From Deltaproteobacteria bacterium (GTDB lineage Bacteria > Myxococcota_A > UBA796 > SXON01): DNA of 64,000 bases. Position 1 is the first letter of the stretch; every line of letters begins with the position of its first letter. Below the pieces are notes generated by a model, which did not search any database, was not told where the DNA came from, and worked only from the letters and a program-made list of their open reading frames with translations. The DNA lies in contig BJHF01000015.1 in the NCBI GenBank assembly GCA_014191855.1, positions 1 through 64,000 of the forward strand, written 5' to 3'. Below are positions 32,505 to 39,878 of the stretch, piece after piece. Position numbers and translations under genes: made by a program.

Positions 32505-33851
32505 TCACCGTGCGGCGATCGATACGACGGTGAACCCAGGGAGGGAGGCCTGCGCGACCACCAATGCGCTCACGACGTCTCCGGCGTGGACGCTGAGCGT
32601 GACATCGAGGCCCGCGTATCGGACCGCCCAGCGCGCGCCCTCGAGCATCAGGCCCGGGCTCGCGGGCGGGCTCTCCACGATGGCCGGCGCACGGATCGCC
32701 GCCGCCGCGCGTTTCGCCGCCGCCAATGCGGCACGCTCCGCCGCGGCCGCTTCGTTTGCAGCGCGCGCCGCTGCCGCTTCCTCTGCGGCGGCCTCGGCAC
32801 GCGCCGCCTCCCGGGCGGCCTCGCGGCGCATGGCTTCCTCCCGCGCGGCCTCCCGCTCGGCGGCCGCCTTCGCCGCCGTGGCCGCTTCTGCCGCGGCTTC
32901 CGCTTCGCGTTTCGCGGCTGTGGCGGCCGCCTCCAGCTCCGCTTCACGCGCCAACGCTGCCATCAATTCAGGGTCCGCTGCGCGCCACGCCGGGGCGCGG
33001 GTGCGCCGCGCCGCAGGAGCGCTCGGCGCCGGCGCGCTCGGCGGGGGGGAAGGCGCGCTTACCTCAAAAGGACGGCTTTCCGTGCGGATGATCCGCTCCC
33101 GAGAGGTTCGCTCGCGCCTGGGCGCATTCAGGAACCGCTGCATCTCCTCTTCGCGTTCGGTGAGCGGGCGCGCCGGGAACGGTCGTGGCTCGATGGTGCG
33201 GACGGCCGATGCCGGTTCGTTCGCCCGGAAGGCGAGTACTCCCCACGCCAGCCTCGGGCCGCGAGGCTCCGGGGAGGGCGCCGCCGATGGAGCCTGGGGC
33301 GGGCCTGCCGGGGGCGAACCGGCTACCGGCGCGCCCACTTCGGGCGCAGCCGACGGCGCGACCCGGCGGATGACCGACCCACCATCTCGCTGCGCTTTGC
33401 GGACCACCACGGGGCCGACCACCTGGCGTTCCCGGCGCGGCGGTAGGGAAGGTTCGCGCACTGGGCCGCGGATCCACTCCTCTTCTTCGGCCGACAGGTG
33501 CACCTTCGGGCTCGGCCTGAAGGCGGGGATACCAAGCCTTTTGCGCTCGCCCTGCACGGCTTCGGGGGTAACGCGCGCGTCGCGCGCGATGGCGCCATCG
33601 GGCTCCTTGCCGAGCCGGCTGCGGAAGCGCACCAGCGCCGGCACCCCATCGCGGCCCAGGGACTCGCCGCGCACCCGGATGCTCGCGCGCGCCAAGGCCC
33701 GCCGCAGTCGACGCGGGTTGGTGCCGAATTCCGCCGCAACTTTGCGGAGGGATTCGCCCGCCCGCAAGCGCGCCAACACCAATGCCCAGCGCGGATCCTC
33801 GTTCATCGGCCCAGCTCCCACGGAGCCGGGCGCCTTCCTGGCCCCCGACAT
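32505..33851 (-). CDS. Putative DNA-binding protein with Ala/Glu-rich coiled coil
   Basis: 448 residues from ATG 33851 (another ATG at 33806). Residues about 16-60 (WALVLARLRAGESLRKVAAE, FGTNPRRLRRALARA) look like a helix-turn-helix, and residues about 70-110 (RSRLGKEPDGAIARDARVTP) like a second, similar one. A Pro-rich linker follows, then about 100 residues of Ala/Glu/Arg coiled coil (EAAREEAMRREAAREAARAE). A 50-residue C-terminal domain ends it (WAVRYAGLDVTLSVHAGDVV). Layout suggests a nucleoid- or partition-type protein. No family recognised. Lies 40 nt upstream of serA and 116 nt from the divergent sigma factor gene. Confidence 0.58.
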   Translation of the reverse strand: MSGARKAPGSVGAGPMNEDPRWALVLARLRAGESLRKVAAEFGTNPRRLRRALARASIRVRGESLGRDGVPALVRFRSRLGKEPDGAIARDARVTPEAVQGERKRLGIPAFRPSPKVHLSAEEEEWIRGPVREPSLPPRRERQVVGPVVVRKAQRDGGSVIRRVAPSAAPEVGAPVAGSPPAGPPQAPSAAPSPEPRGPRLAWGVLAFRANEPASAVRTIEPRPFPARPLTEREEEMQRFLNAPRRERTSRERIIRTESRPFEVSAPSPPPSAPAPSAPAARRTRAPAWRAADPELMAALAREAELEAAATAAKREAEAAAEAATAAKAAAEREAAREEAMRREAAREAARAEAAAEEAAAARAANEAAAAERAALAAAKRAAAAIRAPAIVESPPASPGLMLEGARWAVRYAGLDVTLSVHAGDVVSALVVAQASLPGFTVVSIAAR

Positions 33852-33967
33852 GGATTCCCCGTCTTGAGTGGCCGCTAACCTGCGGCGAGCCCGCATCGTG
33901 CGCGGGATAGACTTCTGCCTAGAATTTCTTTCGGCGCCGCGGCGCTCAGGGGTCGGACCCACGCACG

Positions 33968-34522
33968 ATGACCATCTCCGACGCCGACCTCAGCGAGCTG
34001 TACATGCGCTACGCCCCGATCCTCCACGCCCGCGCCCGCGGCATCCTCGGCGATGACGCGGAGGCCGGTGATGCGGTTCAAGAGACCTTCGCCCGGGTGA
34101 TCCGGGCCGGTGAGCGGTTCCGCAACGAGTCGTCGCCGCTCACGTGGATGTACCAGATCAATACGAATTGGTGCCTCAACCGCCTGCGGGACCGCAAGGG
34201 GCACCAGCGGAAACATGACGAGCGACGTGCTGAAATCATGCCTCGGGGGGAGGAGCCGGAGCTGGACGTGAGCCGGTTGGACGACCACCGGATTCGGGAC
34301 CTGCTGGTGGAGGAGGAGGCGGAGACGCAACGCATCGTTATCGCCCTGTTCTTTGACGACATGACGCGCGAAGAAGCGGCGGTGGCGGTCGGGATCTCGG
34401 TGCCGACCCTCCGAAAGCGGCTGGACGCGTTCCTCCGCCGCGCCCGCCGGTCGCTTGGGGTGGTGGTGGCCAGCGCTGTGGTGGTGTGGTTCGCCTGGTC
34501 TGCGCTCGGGGGTGGCCAATGA
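33968..34522 (+). CDS. ECF-type sigma-70 factor with a C-terminal membrane segment
   Basis: 184 residues. Region 2 covers about residues 8-75 (LYMRYAPILHARARGILG, DAVQETFARVIRAGERF) and region 4 about residues 112-160 (TREEAAVAVGISVPTLRKRL). Directly after region 4 comes LGVVVASAVVVWFAWSAL (residues 163-180), a clear transmembrane helix with an Arg-rich cytoplasmic flank and a tiny GGGQ tail. Sigma factors are normally soluble, so this one may be tethered to the inner membrane and need release, or the helix may bind the neighbouring membrane protein. The stop overlaps the next gene as ATGA. Confidence 0.86.
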   Translation: MTISDADLSELYMRYAPILHARARGILGDDAEAGDAVQETFARVIRAGERFRNESSPLTWMYQINTNWCLNRLRDRKGHQRKHDERRAEIMPRGEEPELDVSRLDDHRIRDLLVEEEAETQRIVIALFFDDMTREEAAVAVGISVPTLRKRLDAFLRRARRSLGVVVASAVVVWFAWSALGGGQ

Positions 34523-35253
34523 GCCGCCTCAACGATGGATCCCGACCCTCCCGGCTGCGGATCGGGCAACACCTCGCCGGGGAAGCGCCATTGGCGCCGG
34601 ATGAAGCGCAGAGCCCAGCGGTCGATGTGTGGAAGGCCGAGGTGGCCGGGACCGTGCCACCCGCGTTCGACGCCGAGAAGCTGCGGGAGTTGGCCAAAAA
34701 GCTCCCCGAGCAGGAGCCGGGGGGCGGCACCGTCGTACCGCTTTTCCGGCGGGTGGCGCCGATCGCTGCGCTGTGCTTCGCGATGGCAGCGGCGCTGTTG
34801 TTCCTCGTTCGCCCGCCGCCGAGCCGCGGCCACCGCAGCAAGGGCGAGGTAACGCTTGATGTGCGGGTGAACCGCGAAGGCACCACCCTGCCTTCCGGCG
34901 TGGACATTCCGGTTCGGTCGGGCGATCGCCTGCAGTTCGTCTATCAGCCCGGCGCGAACAATAGCGTCGTGATCGTAGGCGTGGACGGCTCGGGCTCGGT
35001 TCAAACCTACTGGCCCGACGAAGGGGACGCGCCGGTGCTGGTGGTTCCTGGCGAGGCCCACCTTCTCGAGGGGAGCATCCTGCTCGACGGCGCGGAAGGG
35101 CCCGAGGTGTTCGTTGCGGGCTTCGGCGTCGAATCGGCGGAGGCGGTCGCAGAGGAGGTGCGCGCGGCGTTCGCTTCGGGGGGCGTCGAGGCGGTTGTGG
35201 CGCTGGAAGAGGCGCATCCGGGCCTGGCCGTATTGGTGCTGGAGAAGGAGTGA
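34519..35253 (+). CDS. Single-pass membrane protein with DUF4384-like domain, possible anti-sigma partner
   Basis: 244 residues. Residues 1-75 are cytoplasmic by the positive-inside rule and include DAEKLRELAKKLPEQEPGG. A transmembrane helix lies at about residues 79-97 (VAPIAALCFAMAAALLFLVR). The periplasmic part contains VRSGDRLQFVYQPGANNSVV then VDGSGSVQTYWPDE, as in DUF4384 domains often found beside caspase-like proteins. Topology (short cytoplasmic domain, one helix, periplasmic sensor) is that of a transmembrane anti-sigma factor, but no zinc-finger motif is seen. Overlaps the sigma gene (ATGA) and the caspase gene (GTGA). Confidence 0.7.
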   Translation: MSRLNDGSRPSRLRIGQHLAGEAPLAPDEAQSPAVDVWKAEVAGTVPPAFDAEKLRELAKKLPEQEPGGGTVVPLFRRVAPIAALCFAMAAALLFLVRPPPSRGHRSKGEVTLDVRVNREGTTLPSGVDIPVRSGDRLQFVYQPGANNSVVIVGVDGSGSVQTYWPDEGDAPVLVVPGEAHLLEGSILLDGAEGPEVFVAGFGVESAEAVAEEVRAAFASGGVEAVVALEEAHPGLAVLVLEKE

Positions 35254-36830
35254 GCCTCGTCCTCGCCAGCATCCTCGGCGTGGGCCTCGCGGCGGCCGAG
35301 GTTCAGCGCTTCGCCGTCGTGGTGGGGAACAACGAGGGCGCCGTCGGCAATGCACGCCTGTACTTCGCCGAGCAGGACGCGAGGAAGGTGCAGGGGGTGC
35401 TCACCGAGCTCGGCGGCGTTTCGCTGATGAACACCCGATCGCTCTACGGAAAGGGGCGGGGGGACCTGCTCAAGGTGATGGCAGACCTTCAAGGCCCCAT
35501 CGCGAGCGCCCGCCAGAATGGCAACGAGACGGTGCTGTATTTTTTCTACTCCGGCCACGCCGACGACAAGAACCTGCAGCTCGGCCGCACCGACGTGAGC
35601 TGGAGCGAGCTGGGCACGCTCCTTGAGAAGTCCGGCGCCGACGTGCGGGTGGCGTTCGTGGATGCGTGCCAGTCGGGCACGATGACCCGGCGGAAGGGCG
35701 GCATCCGCGCTCCGGGCTTCGTGTTTGAGTTGCAGGAACGGCTCGACGCGCGCGGCTCGGTGATCATCACGAGCAGCGGTGGCGACGAAGCGAGCCAGGA
35801 GTCCGACGAGATCGGCGGCTCCTACTTCACTCATTTTCTCGCCTCGGGGCTCTCGGGCAACGCGGACGACGACGGCGACGGGCGCGTGACGCTGAGCGAA
35901 ACCTACCGCTATGTGTACCACGAGACCGTGTACCGGACGTCTGCGACGCGTACCGGCACCCAGCACCCGACCGGCGCCTGGGATCTCTCGGCGAACGGCG
36001 AGGTGGTCATCACCGAGCTAGGCCGAGCCGGCACCGGGACGCTCCAGCTCCCGGCCTCGAACCCGGGCACCTTCGCAGTGTTCGACGTAGACCGGCGCAT
36101 GTACGTCTCCGAAGTGGCGGTAACCGGCATGGACCGGCAGATCTCGCTCCGGCCCGGGGCGTACCTCGTACAGAAGCGCCTCCCGACGCACCTTGCGGTC
36201 GCGCAGGTCCGGATCGGCGCCTCGACCGTGGTGCGGGTGGACGGTGCGCAGTTCAAGGATGGCGAGTATGAAGACGACGTGGCGAAGGGAACGATCAACG
36301 CCACGATCCGCGAAGCGAAGCGCCCGAAGCTGGCCTTGCACCTCATCACGGGCGGCCGGGCGTTCTCCGATCCGACGATCGCGTCAGCGTATTTCCCAAG
36401 CACGGCGGCGGCGGGGCTTGAGGGACGCTTCGGCTGGCGGGACGGGAAGTACCTGAGCGCGGACTTCCTTGCGGGGAGCGGAGCGGGAACGCTGGAGATC
36501 GAGGGGTTGGGCTACCCCGTGAACATCGAGTTGGACTCGGCCACCTTCGCGGCGGGTGCCGGTTGGCGCACCCCCGAGTTCATCGTACAGGCTGGCGGCG
36601 GCCTGCATCTCCAGGCCTTCTGGCTTCGGCGGCGGTTCCCCGATGAGGGGGTGGCGGATCAGGAGCTGTTCTCCGTAGCGCCCGGGCTCTCGGGCTGGTT
36701 TGGTGTTCACCCCGGACAGTTCGAAGCGGAGCTCCAGCTTCGTGTGCATTACCTGCCCTTCGTCGTCGATGGCCGCGACAACGGAATGGGCTTCTCCGAG
36801 CTCCTGCTCGGCCTCGGCTACCGGTTCTAA
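35250..36830 (+). CDS. Secreted caspase-family peptidase fused to a probable outer-membrane barrel
   Basis: 526 residues, GTG start. Signal peptide at residues 1-16 (LVLASILGVGLAAAEV). Caspase (C14) domain at about residues 18-250: RFAVVVGNNEG, the catalytic His103 in YFFYSGHADD and Cys140 in VAFVDACQSG, then ITSSGGDEASQES. A canonical EF-hand loop lies at residues 206-217 (DDDGDGRVTLSE). Residues about 258-350 form a PEGA-like beta domain. Residues about 359-526 have amphipathic strands with tight turns and end LGLGYRF, a terminal Phe as in BAM-inserted barrels. I infer a calcium-responsive cysteine peptidase held at the outer membrane. Third gene of a coupled operon led by a sigma factor. 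Confidence 0.83.
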   Translation: MSLVLASILGVGLAAAEVQRFAVVVGNNEGAVGNARLYFAEQDARKVQGVLTELGGVSLMNTRSLYGKGRGDLLKVMADLQGPIASARQNGNETVLYFFYSGHADDKNLQLGRTDVSWSELGTLLEKSGADVRVAFVDACQSGTMTRRKGGIRAPGFVFELQERLDARGSVIITSSGGDEASQESDEIGGSYFTHFLASGLSGNADDDGDGRVTLSETYRYVYHETVYRTSATRTGTQHPTGAWDLSANGEVVITELGRAGTGTLQLPASNPGTFAVFDVDRRMYVSEVAVTGMDRQISLRPGAYLVQKRLPTHLAVAQVRIGASTVVRVDGAQFKDGEYEDDVAKGTINATIREAKRPKLALHLITGGRAFSDPTIASAYFPSTAAAGLEGRFGWRDGKYLSADFLAGSGAGTLEIEGLGYPVNIELDSATFAAGAGWRTPEFIVQAGGGLHLQAFWLRRRFPDEGVADQELFSVAPGLSGWFGVHPGQFEAELQLRVHYLPFVVDGRDNGMGFSELLLGLGYRF

Positions 36831-36834
36831 TCCC

Positions 36835-37755
36835 ATGATCCTCTCTCCCCTCCTGCTCCTTGGTGCCCTGGGCTGCGGCAATGTCAGCAACGACATCTTC
36901 GACGACGACGTAGACTTCGCGGCGGCGCTCCCCGAGGAGTCCCGACAAACGCTCAGCTTTTCGGACGACACCACCGACGAGGCCGGGCGTGGCCTCGGGG
37001 AGCGCGCCGACCTCGTGGAGCTTTCCGTGGCGGTGGCCGGTGGCGTGAACGCCTATGTGTTCGCCGTGCTTGGCGTCGTAGACGCGGCCATCGAGCTGCC
37101 GCCCTCGGAGCGTACAGAGGATACCCGGCGTTGGGGGCCTCATACGGGTGAGTGTGGTGTTGACTTCACGCTGTTGATGTCGCGCTCAGCCGGCGTGTAC
37201 GACTGGAGTGTTTCGGGCCATGCGGCGGGCACCGAGGACGCGGTGCTGCTGTACGGCACCCACTTCGCGGGCACGAGCGTGGCCGCGGGCGACGGCCGCT
37301 TCGTTTGGGACCATAGCCGCTGGAACGAGTGGTGTGCCGGCACGGAAACGGGCCTGGTCGAGGTTGCCTACGACAATCGCGACGGCGTTGATCTCGTCGT
37401 GGGTGTGAACGGTTGGACGACCACGAGCGGCGACGTGGAGGACTGGACCTACGCCTACCGCCGCACCGGGAGCCTCGGCGACTTCCAGTACCGGACGGTC
37501 ACCGATCTGGAAGGTGATGGCAGCGAAGAGCTCGCAAATGTTGCCGTGCGAGATCGCTGGATCCCCGGCGAAGGTGGCCGGTCAGACGCGACAGTCACCG
37601 GCGGTGCCTTCGGGGAGGATCCGTGGGTATGGAGCCAGTGTTGGGGCCCCACGGGGCGCCTCCTCTGGCAGGAGGACTCTCTGGCGATCACCGAGCAGGT
37701 CGGCGTTGCGGCGGCGTGCGCGTTCACGGACGTGGCGGGGGTCGACCGGATCTGA
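36835..37755 (+). CDS. Lipoprotein of the caspase operon
   Basis: 306 residues, ATG start 4 nt after the caspase stop. The leader LSPLLLLGALGCGNVS has lipobox ALGC. The mature part begins acidic (DIFDDDVDFAAALPEE) and is beta-rich, with three or four Cys (GECGVDFTLL, NEWCAGTETG, WSQCWGPTG, AAACAFTD) suggesting disulfides. It has WTYAYRRTGS-type strands and no recognised domain. Its place in the operon makes it a candidate substrate, inhibitor or surface partner of the caspase-barrel protein (inference only). Confidence 0.68.
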   Translation: MILSPLLLLGALGCGNVSNDIFDDDVDFAAALPEESRQTLSFSDDTTDEAGRGLGERADLVELSVAVAGGVNAYVFAVLGVVDAAIELPPSERTEDTRRWGPHTGECGVDFTLLMSRSAGVYDWSVSGHAAGTEDAVLLYGTHFAGTSVAAGDGRFVWDHSRWNEWCAGTETGLVEVAYDNRDGVDLVVGVNGWTTTSGDVEDWTYAYRRTGSLGDFQYRTVTDLEGDGSEELANVAVRDRWIPGEGGRSDATVTGGAFGEDPWVWSQCWGPTGRLLWQEDSLAITEQVGVAAACAFTDVAGVDRI

Positions 37756-37770: not shown

Positions 37771-39036
37771 TCAGCGCGCCGCGCGCAGCGCCGTGATCGC
37801 CGCCACCGTCGCGGCCGCTTCTGGCGACGCCAGCGCCGTCGTGACGCGCTTCGCGGCTTCGTCGATCCGGCGCAACGCGCGTTGCCGATGCGGATCCTCC
37901 TGGTCCAACGCGGCGAAGAGGTGTGCCCACGCGTGATCGAGGGCGTCGCCGAGGTCGCGGCGCACAGGCTCCGGGTCGACGTCGAGCGCGATGCGCGTTT
38001 CCAAGGCCAGAAGCTTGGTTTCCGGGCCGGAGGTTCGCTCTGCGCGCCGCCACGCCTCCCAGGCCCCCGTGGCGCTCGCGGCTCGCCGGGCCGGCCCAAT
38101 CCGTCGGCCCTGGCGCAGCATGGAGACGACCGCGGTGATCCCCAGCCCCGCGATGATCGAGATGTCGAGCGCGGGAATCCCGGAGTGGATGAACAGCGGA
38201 ATCTGCGCGACGCCGCCGGCCACCATCGCCGGAAGGAACGTGGGCGACACCGCCGACGTCGCGACGACTTCCGCCTGCAGGCCGGCGCGCTCCGCCTGGG
38301 TGCGCAGGCGTAAGCTCCGCGCGGGCTCGGTTACGGGGGCCCAGATCCATTGCCCCGGCCGCTCGGATGCGCGTTCCACGTCGCGGAGACGCGTCCCGGT
38401 TCGCGCCGCAACGCGCGCGAGCAAGGGGGCGTTTCCTGCCGGGAGCCGCACCATCACGACGGAAGGTGGGGGCGATGCACGTGAGGCGGCGGAGATGACG
38501 GGGCTGCTCGACTCCGGCGACCGCTGCGTGCGCACGGGGGCAGCAGGGGGCATCGCGGGAGCCGGGCCGGGCGCCCCCAGGACGTCGGCGAGGGAAACCT
38601 CCCGAAGCTGGCCTTCTGCCAGACCGAGAGGTGCGTAGCGGATGACGCCGGCCGCATCCACCACCAGATCGGCGGCGGTCGCTCGGTGGAGGTTCACGCC
38701 TGCGGCCACCAACCAGCCGGCAAGCGAAGCGCGGGCGTCGTCGTCGAGGGCTTCGAGCAACGCGGGGCCGTGCACGCGGGGGCGCACCCAGGCTGGCCAA
38801 CCGTCGATATCCACCCAATCCAGCTCGGGGTGCGCTGCGATTCCGGCGTTGCGTCGGGCTTCGCGGCCCCCAAGCCACGCCTCGCGTGCCCCGGCCCGTA
38901 GCCGTAGATGGGCGTTCGGCAGGATCAGCTCCGTGTCGCCGTCGTCATCAAGGGAGAAGGCCAGAAACCCCGGCGGCGCCGGGACCGCCGACCGCACGCG
39001 CCGGTCGCCGACGCGACGCCCTGGCCCTAGCTCCAC
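37771..39036 (-). CDS. Hypothetical membrane-associated protein
   Basis: 421 residues, GTG start sharing one base with the hydrolase stop (TAGTG). Residues about 20-180 are soluble, with HRATAADLVVDAAGVIRYAP, a layout faintly like a kinase-type fold but without catalytic motifs. A Pro/Ala/Ser linker follows. Near residue 285 there are two hydrophobic stretches (MVAGGVAQIPLFIH, ISIIAGLGITAVVSML) that could form a hairpin in the membrane. A helical C-terminal domain ends it (RRDLGDALDHAWAHLFAALD). No family recognised. Last of a three-gene operon. Confidence 0.58.
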   Translation of the reverse strand: MELGPGRRVGDRRVRSAVPAPPGFLAFSLDDDGDTELILPNAHLRLRAGAREAWLGGREARRNAGIAAHPELDWVDIDGWPAWVRPRVHGPALLEALDDDARASLAGWLVAAGVNLHRATAADLVVDAAGVIRYAPLGLAEGQLREVSLADVLGAPGPAPAMPPAAPVRTQRSPESSSPVISAASRASPPPSVVMVRLPAGNAPLLARVAARTGTRLRDVERASERPGQWIWAPVTEPARSLRLRTQAERAGLQAEVVATSAVSPTFLPAMVAGGVAQIPLFIHSGIPALDISIIAGLGITAVVSMLRQGRRIGPARRAASATGAWEAWRRAERTSGPETKLLALETRIALDVDPEPVRRDLGDALDHAWAHLFAALDQEDPHRQRALRRIDEAAKRVTTALASPEAAATVAAITALRAAR

Positions 39037-39878
39037 TATTCCTCCTGGCAATCCTGGCGAATCCAGCATTCCAACCACGGGCGGAACGTCTCCGCGTCCG
39101 TCTCGAGGGTCTCCGCATGGTCGGCCCCCGGGTTCAGGAGCAGCTTCTTCGTGGTGGCCGCGGCACCGTCGTACACCATCTGGGCGTGCTCGGGCTGGAT
39201 GTAGGTGTCCTCCGCGCCGTGGCTGACGAGGTACGGCACCTCGGGTGGCATCTTGCGAACGGCGGCGACGTTGTCGAAGTTCTCTTCGAAGAACCAACCG
39301 CTTGGGAGATCCATCGTCGTGCCGTCGTCCAGCATCTTCTGGGTGTTGGCGAACATGTCCTGGGTGATGAGCACACGCGGCGGCGTGGCCACGAGGTTGT
39401 GCACGGACACGAACCCGCCGAGGGAGAGCCCGATGTAGACGAGATCGGTGCTCGGGAGCTCCGTCGTGTCCTCCACGTGCTCGATCGCAGCAGCCCCATC
39501 GGCGATCACCCCGTCAAAATCCGGGTCGCCCGCGGAGCGTCCGTAGCCGCGGTAGTCGAAGATGAACACTTCGTAGCCGCTCTCCCAGTAGAAGCCGACG
39601 TCGGCCCAGTATTCATCGATGTTCGCGGCGTTTCCGTGGAAATAGACGACGACATCGCGAGTGGTATTGCGCTCGCCTGGGACGCACTCCGCATCGCCCT
39701 CGTGCGCCTGATGGGCCCAGGCTCCGTAGAGGGTGCCCGCCTCGCCCTCGAATGACACCAACTCCTGGCAGTCGGAGGGGATGATCTCGCCGCCGAGCGC
39801 GTACGCGTCTGTCGCCTCGGGATTGAAGAAGAAACCGTCGAGCCGGTAGCAGCCGGAGAGCAGGATCAGGAACATCAT
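39036..39878 (-). CDS. Alpha/beta-hydrolase lipoprotein
   Basis: 280 residues, ATG start in an ATGA overlap. The leader MMFLILLSGCYRL has lipobox LSGC. A serine hydrolase fold is clear: VVVYFHGNAANIDEYW (oxyanion region), FIFDYRGYGRSAGDPD, the nucleophile elbow VYIGLSLGGFVSVH, YLVSHGAEDTYIQPEH with the acid, and the catalytic His in NPGADHAETLE. Resembles BAAT/esterase-type hydrolases of the YfhR/ABHD kind. Substrate unknown. It acts in the periplasm or at the outer membrane. Confidence 0.82.
   Translation of the reverse strand: MMFLILLSGCYRLDGFFFNPEATDAYALGGEIIPSDCQELVSFEGEAGTLYGAWAHQAHEGDAECVPGERNTTRDVVVYFHGNAANIDEYWADVGFYWESGYEVFIFDYRGYGRSAGDPDFDGVIADGAAAIEHVEDTTELPSTDLVYIGLSLGGFVSVHNLVATPPRVLITQDMFANTQKMLDDGTTMDLPSGWFFEENFDNVAAVRKMPPEVPYLVSHGAEDTYIQPEHAQMVYDGAAATTKKLLLNPGADHAETLETDAETFRPWLECWIRQDCQEE

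Follow-up and report, generated by a model that had tools for sequence, protein, structure and literature searches.

Predicted operons that join a sigma-70 factor to a metacaspase have been noted since 2012, in four Myxococcus xanthus loci and in other genera, with Myxococcus, Anaeromyxobacter, Haliangium, Sorangium, Ralstonia and Fibrobacter named (PMC3501461). We analyzed a stretch of 64,000 nucleotides from a Deltaproteobacteria bacterium (assembly GCA_014191855.1, contig BJHF01000015.1, positions 1 to 64,000), referred to here as the window, in which four coupled genes that we call A, B, C and D encode an extracytoplasmic function (ECF) sigma factor, a predicted anti-sigma factor, a secreted caspase with a predicted outer-membrane barrel at its C-terminus, and a lipoprotein, respectively. 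This locus is like the operons of 2012 in that a sigma factor and a C14 caspase share one predicted operon, and the Myxococcus and Fibrobacter loci were found here too. It is unlike them in having parts that go unnamed in the operon section of that survey, which names no anti-sigma factor, barrel, lipoprotein, shared motif or mechanism (PMC3501461). A preliminary description of the window had held the exact combination of genes to be unfamiliar, but part of it, the pairing of sigma factor and metacaspase, was already known. What we regard as new here is the probable placement of B in an anti-sigma family, the predicted fusion of a caspase to a barrel, an R-x-K-G motif common to B and C, and the co-variation of that motif between the two proteins.

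In systems of the DegS-RseA-RseP type, an anti-sigma factor is released by regulated intramembrane proteolysis. The window's locus shares with them an ECF sigma factor, a one-helix membrane protein as predicted anti-sigma factor with a periplasmic domain and, as proposed here, a periplasmic first cut. It differs in that the first protease there is an inner-membrane serine protease, whereas here it would be an operon-encoded caspase tied to the outer membrane, and in that the window's sigma factor has a membrane helix of its own. Craspase cuts Csx30, which holds an ECF sigma factor; it is cytoplasmic, RNA-guided and of the CHAT family, and is not known to involve membrane proteins or a barrel. 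As in Craspase, a caspase-like protease would be connected with an ECF sigma factor by way of an inhibitor that is cut (the cleavage being our proposal), but a cytoplasmic, RNA-guided CHAT protease there contrasts with a predicted envelope caspase bearing a barrel here. The principle of anti-sigma release by proteolysis (PMC8999054) and the CRISPR-activated caspase Csx29 of Craspase (PMC10028731, PMC9729208) have both been described. A caspase-fold protein also adjoins an ECF sigma factor in two further groups that are unlike the present one: ECF54, which has CHAT proteases nearby and is described without an anti-sigma factor (PMC8999054), and the EACC2-caspase systems, which have other domains and a DUF1822 TPR protein (PMC8195603). 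Neither a caspase that makes a periplasmic cut in an anti-sigma factor nor the R-x-K-G motif was found among the open-literature matches listed, a scope of titles and abstract beginnings that lies outside the subscription papers, the main ECF classification included.

Gene order and the R-x-K-G motif of B and C

Matches to C were found in 68 of the 93 genomes searched, a count that includes its own genome and paralogues. Among 33 full-length relatives of C, B lies in front in all 33 and A in 32, while D, sought by single-sequence search, lies behind in 24; the sequence of the relative that lacks A (L048) begins inside B. In a scan of named genomes that covered the best 80 of 312 relatives, B lies beside C in 77 loci, A in 64 and both in 63. 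The A-B junction falls within 20 nt in 62 of these 63 loci (exactly -4 in 45), and the B-C junction lies between -20 and +30 in 59 (-4 in 33). This conservation of gene order in the 63 named-genome loci excludes a chance association of the genes. Most of the relatives that have a record title are 'Deltaproteobacteria', 'Proteobacteria' or Myxococcota bins from metagenomes. According to record titles, A-B-C also occurs in Fibrobacter (L134), Gemmatimonadetes (L152), Spirochaetes (L153) and a gammaproteobacterial bin (L148), and the gene set is present in M. xanthus as well. The synteny search that the preliminary description had proposed thus finds the gene set conserved far outside close relatives.

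B and C carry the same short motif, R-x-K-G. In C it sits seven residues past the catalytic Cys, where a stretch begins (149-162) that has a predicted local distance difference test score (pLDDT) under 50; in B it lies in a predicted flexible periplasmic linker that leads from the membrane helix to a beta-sandwich, with pLDDT under 50 at residues 105-107. For comparison, we examined the 51 best-scoring PF00656 loci among the caspases found, and four of these 51 (L187, L188, L192 and L201) repeat loci of the named-genome scan. The catalytic region was readable in forty-two: the motif and B occur together in 15, neither occurs in 25, the motif occurs alone in one (L196, at a contig end) and B alone in one (L211). 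R-x-K-G was therefore absent from the 25 readable caspases without B, meaning that no B was present within about 1.5 kb. Nine loci could not be read by script; four that have B (L194, L186, L190 and L228) were read later and five were left unread. With these four counted in, the full motif is present in 16 of 20 B-linked caspases, L194 being among the carriers. A second control set comprised 30 zf-HC2 loci, ten of which were unreadable with either search window. Using a 110-residue window, we observed the motif in none of 17 proteins without such an adjacent caspase (8 of them with a membrane helix) and in two of three proteins beside such a caspase, the third (L178) having VEKG. The first window, of 53 residues, gave 0 of 16 unlinked proteins and only 1 of 3 linked ones. 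Since both motifs are clade-specific, part of the association between B and C reflects shared ancestry.

The motif also changes jointly in the two proteins. Across 113 B-C pairs, Arg at P3 is present in both proteins in 75, in neither in 22, in C only in 12 and in B only in 1. At P1 there are 90 Lys/Lys and 10 Arg/Arg pairs, 7 with Lys in C and Arg in B, 2 with the reverse, and 1 with Lys in C and Ser in B; these tables leave out three pairs without a readable C motif. Discordant pairs include L138 and L151 (RQKG in C, GIKG in B) and L001 (RLKG in C, HTKG in B), the last from a second B-C cassette, on contig 73 of the window's own genome (L001, L068). We mapped the changes onto a tree of the catalytic domain from which the loop had been cut out, assuming an equal chance for every branch. 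P3 changes on 6 branches in C and on 16 in B, and 5 of 224 branches are shared (P = 5.6e-6). These five comprise L091, L142, the stem that bears two divergent caspase types, and parallel regains of Arg in L243 and L190. At P1, a single branch carries the change to Arg in C, and it is one of the 6 branches on which B changes. Two M. xanthus paralogues were read after the rule had been formed and carry RTKA in C with RLKG in B (L190) and GIKS in C with GEKG in B (L186). An earlier branch test without the added rows gave 5 changes in C and 13 in B, with 4 shared of 204 branches (P = 4.9e-5), and the uncorrected P3 table reads 68 both, 10 C only, 1 B only and 18 neither.

The set of pairs was reached as follows. 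From 118 pairs, 16 were removed and L101 was restored with the right reading frame, leaving 103. Removals concerned B genes cut by contig ends (L106, L109, L115), a wrong B frame (L265), unclear gene starts (L117), duplicates (L212, L224, L239, L244, L249) and close Myxococcus relatives (L136, L138, L139, L145, L151). For the final 113, L117, L136, L138, L139, L145 and L151 were restored, and L001, L186, L190 and L194 were added.

Family membership and predicted topology of the four proteins

C is a peptidase of the C14/metacaspase type, with a caspase fold and a His/Cys dyad: it matches Pfam Peptidase_C14 at 32.1 bits (cut-off 21.4), and the secreted caspase with intact catalytic residues of the preliminary description is borne out by this match and by the invariance of both residues (Table 1). 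D43 and D138 are invariant too and align to positions of the acidic S1 pocket of metacaspases, the specificity itself being a prediction. Assignment of C as an EACC1-associated caspase was rejected at 49.8 bits against a cut-off of 140 (NCBIfam NF047832). The EF-hand loop claimed earlier is real and conserved, and this EF-hand-type loop suggests, at most, that C may depend on calcium, as had been claimed; the label "PEGA-like" for the domain that follows found no support in Pfam. At the C-terminus, the model shows eight long strands and an end in GYRF, so that a barrel with an aromatic last residue, also claimed earlier, is predicted. A Foldseek comparison of this barrel with OmpA gave E 2.7e-8 and a TM score of 0.70 by target. 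It is established for OmpA that both ends of such an eight-stranded barrel lie in the periplasm, and the protease domain of C should therefore be periplasmic. As modeled, then, C should be a caspase fused to an OmpA-like barrel and facing the periplasm, and the surface peptidase of the preliminary description is unlikely. D carries a lipobox Cys, in line with the Cys-containing lipoprotein described earlier, and this Cys is invariant in 25 of 25 sequences (the lipobox and the signal peptide of C were assigned by eye). D adjoins 51 of the 54 caspases that extend to the end of the C profile but none of the 26 others.

In the structure model of B (pLDDT 89.1, predicted TM score 0.62), a helical N-terminus is followed by a membrane helix, then by a linker of low confidence and finally by a beta-sandwich. 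No Pfam family is matched by the window's own B. In its family of 64 aligned members, which has a mean column identity of 21%, DUF4384 is matched by 32 and zf-HC2 by 12 (E up to 0.1); the one-helix, DUF4384-like protein described earlier is thus recovered through the model and through the family, not through a Pfam match of the window's B itself. The zinc motif HxxxCxxC is present in 23 of 77 B relatives, a few of which are cut by contig ends. Since the window's B lacks this motif, we file it as a relative of the class I zinc family and not as a zinc anti-sigma factor. Searched against all Protein Data Bank sequences, the family profile gave six matches at E up to 1, the first five of which are anti-sigma chains: ChrR twice (0.009), 3hug_B (which we take to be RslA), RsiW and DdvA. 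In a fold search the matches were filled by the periplasmic domain. We predict from these relationships that B is an anti-sigma factor by descent, and binding and inhibition of the sigma factor would follow as predictions.

A is, by its sequence, an ECF sigma factor, a short protein with sigma-70 regions 2 and 4. It matches Pfam Sigma70_r2 (E 3.9e-16, 59 bits, cut-off 24) and TIGR02937 (67.3 bits, cut-off 42.9), with Sigma70_r4_2 at 22.1 bits, slightly below the cut-off of 25.7. A hydrophobic stretch at its C-terminus indicates a membrane helix, so that on both counts A agrees with the preliminary description. When the sigma helix (called by a hydropathy threshold) is tabulated against the zinc motif of B in 63 loci, a table that ignores relatedness, the helix occurs without the zinc motif in 28, the zinc motif without the helix in 22, both in 1 and neither in 12. 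Absence of the zinc motif from B thus accompanies a membrane helix on the sigma factor: the B partners of sigma factors that end in such a helix are free of the zinc motif, and L125 is the sole exception.

A promoter-like element, TTTC-N19-GTC, precedes A and is found in 12 of 14 loci of the genus or family, with a spacing of 19 every time. It lies at -37 to -47 in 11 loci and, in L046, at -94 of the start used. In 2000 crude two-base-block shuffles, the mean was 0.29 loci and the maximum 3 of 14. The conserved element would fit self-activation of the operon. The preliminary description had suggested looking for a promoter motif common to a regulon, and none was found beyond this element before the operon itself.

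A proposed envelope switch and its alternatives

The operon is probably, though by no means certainly, an envelope-signaling switch in which the caspase processes itself and cuts B after a Lys or Arg that precedes Gly, and regulated proteolysis then frees the sigma factor. Gene order, family membership, predicted folds, and the shared motif with its co-variation were computed; we infer the localization, the cleavage, the order of events, the signal and the release of A. B, as a membrane-spanning anti-sigma factor, would hold A at the inner membrane, while C would pass into the periplasm and be anchored in the outer membrane through its C-terminal barrel, with D as the outer-membrane lipoprotein partner of that barrel. 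Upon an envelope signal, C would activate itself through a cut of its loop after Lys149 (R-x-K/G, the slash marking the bond). It would then cut B after Lys108, likewise R-x-K/G, in the exposed linker immediately on the periplasmic side of the inner membrane, which would constitute site-1 cleavage. A site-2 protease would finish B, and A, once freed, would transcribe its targets, including its own operon. Site-2 protease homologues are present, yet they are likewise present in all 14 controls. The idea of the preliminary description that sigma factor, membrane regulator and protease form a linked circuit is supported by the conservation of the gene set and by the barrel prediction.

The roles of bacterial metacaspases are largely open and are mostly discussed as cell death. 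The sequence evidence presented here indicates one particular substrate and one specific bond for the caspase, within a gene set shared with M. xanthus, which is harmless and open to genetics. If the proposed switch is true, caspases would form a new class among the proteases that take the first step in releasing sigma factors, with a logic that parallels that of Craspase but in the envelope, and bacterial caspases would gain a signaling job.

Several observations weigh against this switch. In seven of the 16 named-genome loci that lack A, at most 1,186 nt of sequence precede the caspase, but the other nine have over 6.9 kb and keep B and C with no adjacent A; these nine all belong to the Myxococcus group. 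Some B-linked caspases lack the full motif (GIKS in L186, RTKA in L190, GIKG in L211, STKG in L228), and it is broken in some B proteins (RIKS in L116, RIKA in L125, RTSG in L120, RSKD in L154, LYRT in L107). At P3, 11 of the 16 changes in B are unmatched in C on the same branch, and something besides the motif may underlie the change on the stem of the two divergent types of caspase. By-eye corrections were made to twelve motif readings (9 in B, 3 in C) ahead of the branch tests, and another ten pairs were read in by eye for the final test. For B, the absence of HxxxCxxC from the window's protein counts on the same side, as does the weakness of each Protein Data Bank match taken singly (E 0.009 to 0.84). 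If tethered to the outer membrane, C may be unable to reach a linker beside the inner membrane. Cleavage, binding and localization are themselves predictions from sequence and model.

A bolder form of the proposal, which we find doubtful, is that C senses outer-membrane assembly. An inserted barrel would keep the protease parked with D at the outer membrane and B out of its reach, whereas, when assembly fails, unassembled periplasmic C would cut B at R-x-K/G and fire the sigma factor. In such a stress response the protease would signal the state of its own folding.

We consider it unlikely that the sigma/anti-sigma pair merely controls expression of the caspase, which would then act downstream in envelope remodeling or cell death, a role that the survey of 2012 proposed for metacaspases of Myxococcus. 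The conserved promoter-like element before the operon would suit such control, and M. xanthus metacaspases have been discussed in connection with cell death (PMC3501461). However, expression control leaves the caspase loop motif in B and the joint changes unexplained, and it does not account for the predicted fusion of the caspase to a barrel with a lipoprotein partner of its own. It is quite unlikely, in our estimation, that the R-x-K-G linker of B is an uncut pseudo-substrate that restrains or recruits the caspase, B coupling both states by binding alone. A shared, co-varying motif is expected for any substrate-like contact, and the persistence of B and C in the nine loci without an adjacent A is in line with this. 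Against it, cleavage behind a basic residue has been described for both metacaspases and orthocaspases, the B linker is predicted to be disordered, as cleavage sites often are, and anti-sigma factors are commonly released by proteolysis (PMC8999054). A coincidental motif, with KG as a structural turn before the beta-sandwich of B and R-x-K-G as a structural feature of the caspase clade, would agree with the part played by shared ancestry and with the unmatched changes in B, but is very improbable in view of the five shared branch changes with their two parallel Arg regains, the Arg at P1 in both proteins of one clade, and the lack of the motif in readable caspases without B.

Locus layout and additional loci

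The features of the locus are collected in Table 1. A shares an ATGA (34519-34522) with B, B shares a GTGA (35250-35253) with C, and D starts four bases past the stop of C, so that the coupling of the four genes is just as it had been described. Upstream lies a divergent long open reading frame without a Pfam match (32505-33962, minus strand), and downstream another long open reading frame, convergent (37771-39297, minus strand). A lipoprotein-like alpha/beta hydrolase is encoded close to the operon at 39036-39878 of the minus strand (Hydrolase_4, 1.2e-17).

Table 1. Positions of the operon's genes and sites in the window
Feature	Position	Strand	Remarks
Promoter-like element TTTC-N19-GTC	33925-33954	+	in front of the operon
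A	33968-34522	+	ECF sigma factor, 184 aa; C-terminal membrane helix about 34454-34519
B	34519-35253	+	predicted anti-sigma factor, 244 aa, one membrane helix
Predicted domains of B			helical cytoplasmic 1-62; membrane helix 74-96; periplasmic beta-sandwich related to DUF4384 110-244; from structure model and family matches
R106-S-K108-G109 in B	34834-34845	+	proposed cleavage site; R 54/64, K 55/64 (R in 7 more), G 61/64
C	35250-36830	+	secreted caspase (C14) with predicted C-terminal eight-stranded outer-membrane barrel, 526 aa
Catalytic His103 of C	35556-35558	+	invariant 49/49
Catalytic Cys140 of C	35667-35669	+	invariant 49/49
R147-R-K149-G150 in C	35688-35699	+	proposed self-cleavage site; R 48/49, K 49/49, G 49/49
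EF-hand-type loop D206-E217 of C	35865-35900	+	D206 and E217 invariant; D210 at least 90% conserved
Predicted eight-stranded barrel of C, residues 360-526	36327-36827	+	DSSP strands on the model; Foldseek to OmpA
D	36835-37755	+	lipoprotein, 306 aa, lipobox Cys14

The Myxococcus-group loci with B and caspase but no adjacent A are L146, L133, L135, L136, L138, L139, L145, L149 and L151, one of which carries Comamonas in its record title. The B motif reads RIKG in seven of them and GIKG in L138 and L151, and in L146 the open reading frame in front of the pair resembles an epimerase-acetyltransferase by eye. The loci L082, L084, L086, L100, L102 and L136 are titled Klebsiella pneumoniae, Bifidobacterium breve or Comamonas; they are Myxococcota-like, and the organism names look wrong. 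In L253 and L255, the caspase is of a type without Lys/Arg-Gly in the loop and the B linker reads, by eye, GLKA or GLKS, so that the Gly seems to be lost on both sides. The genome to which the window belongs has caspases on contigs 20 and 80 (L002, L004), of which that on contig 20 has no motif and no B nearby and that on contig 80, unreadable by script, likewise has no B, and a further caspase on contig 13 at 21845.
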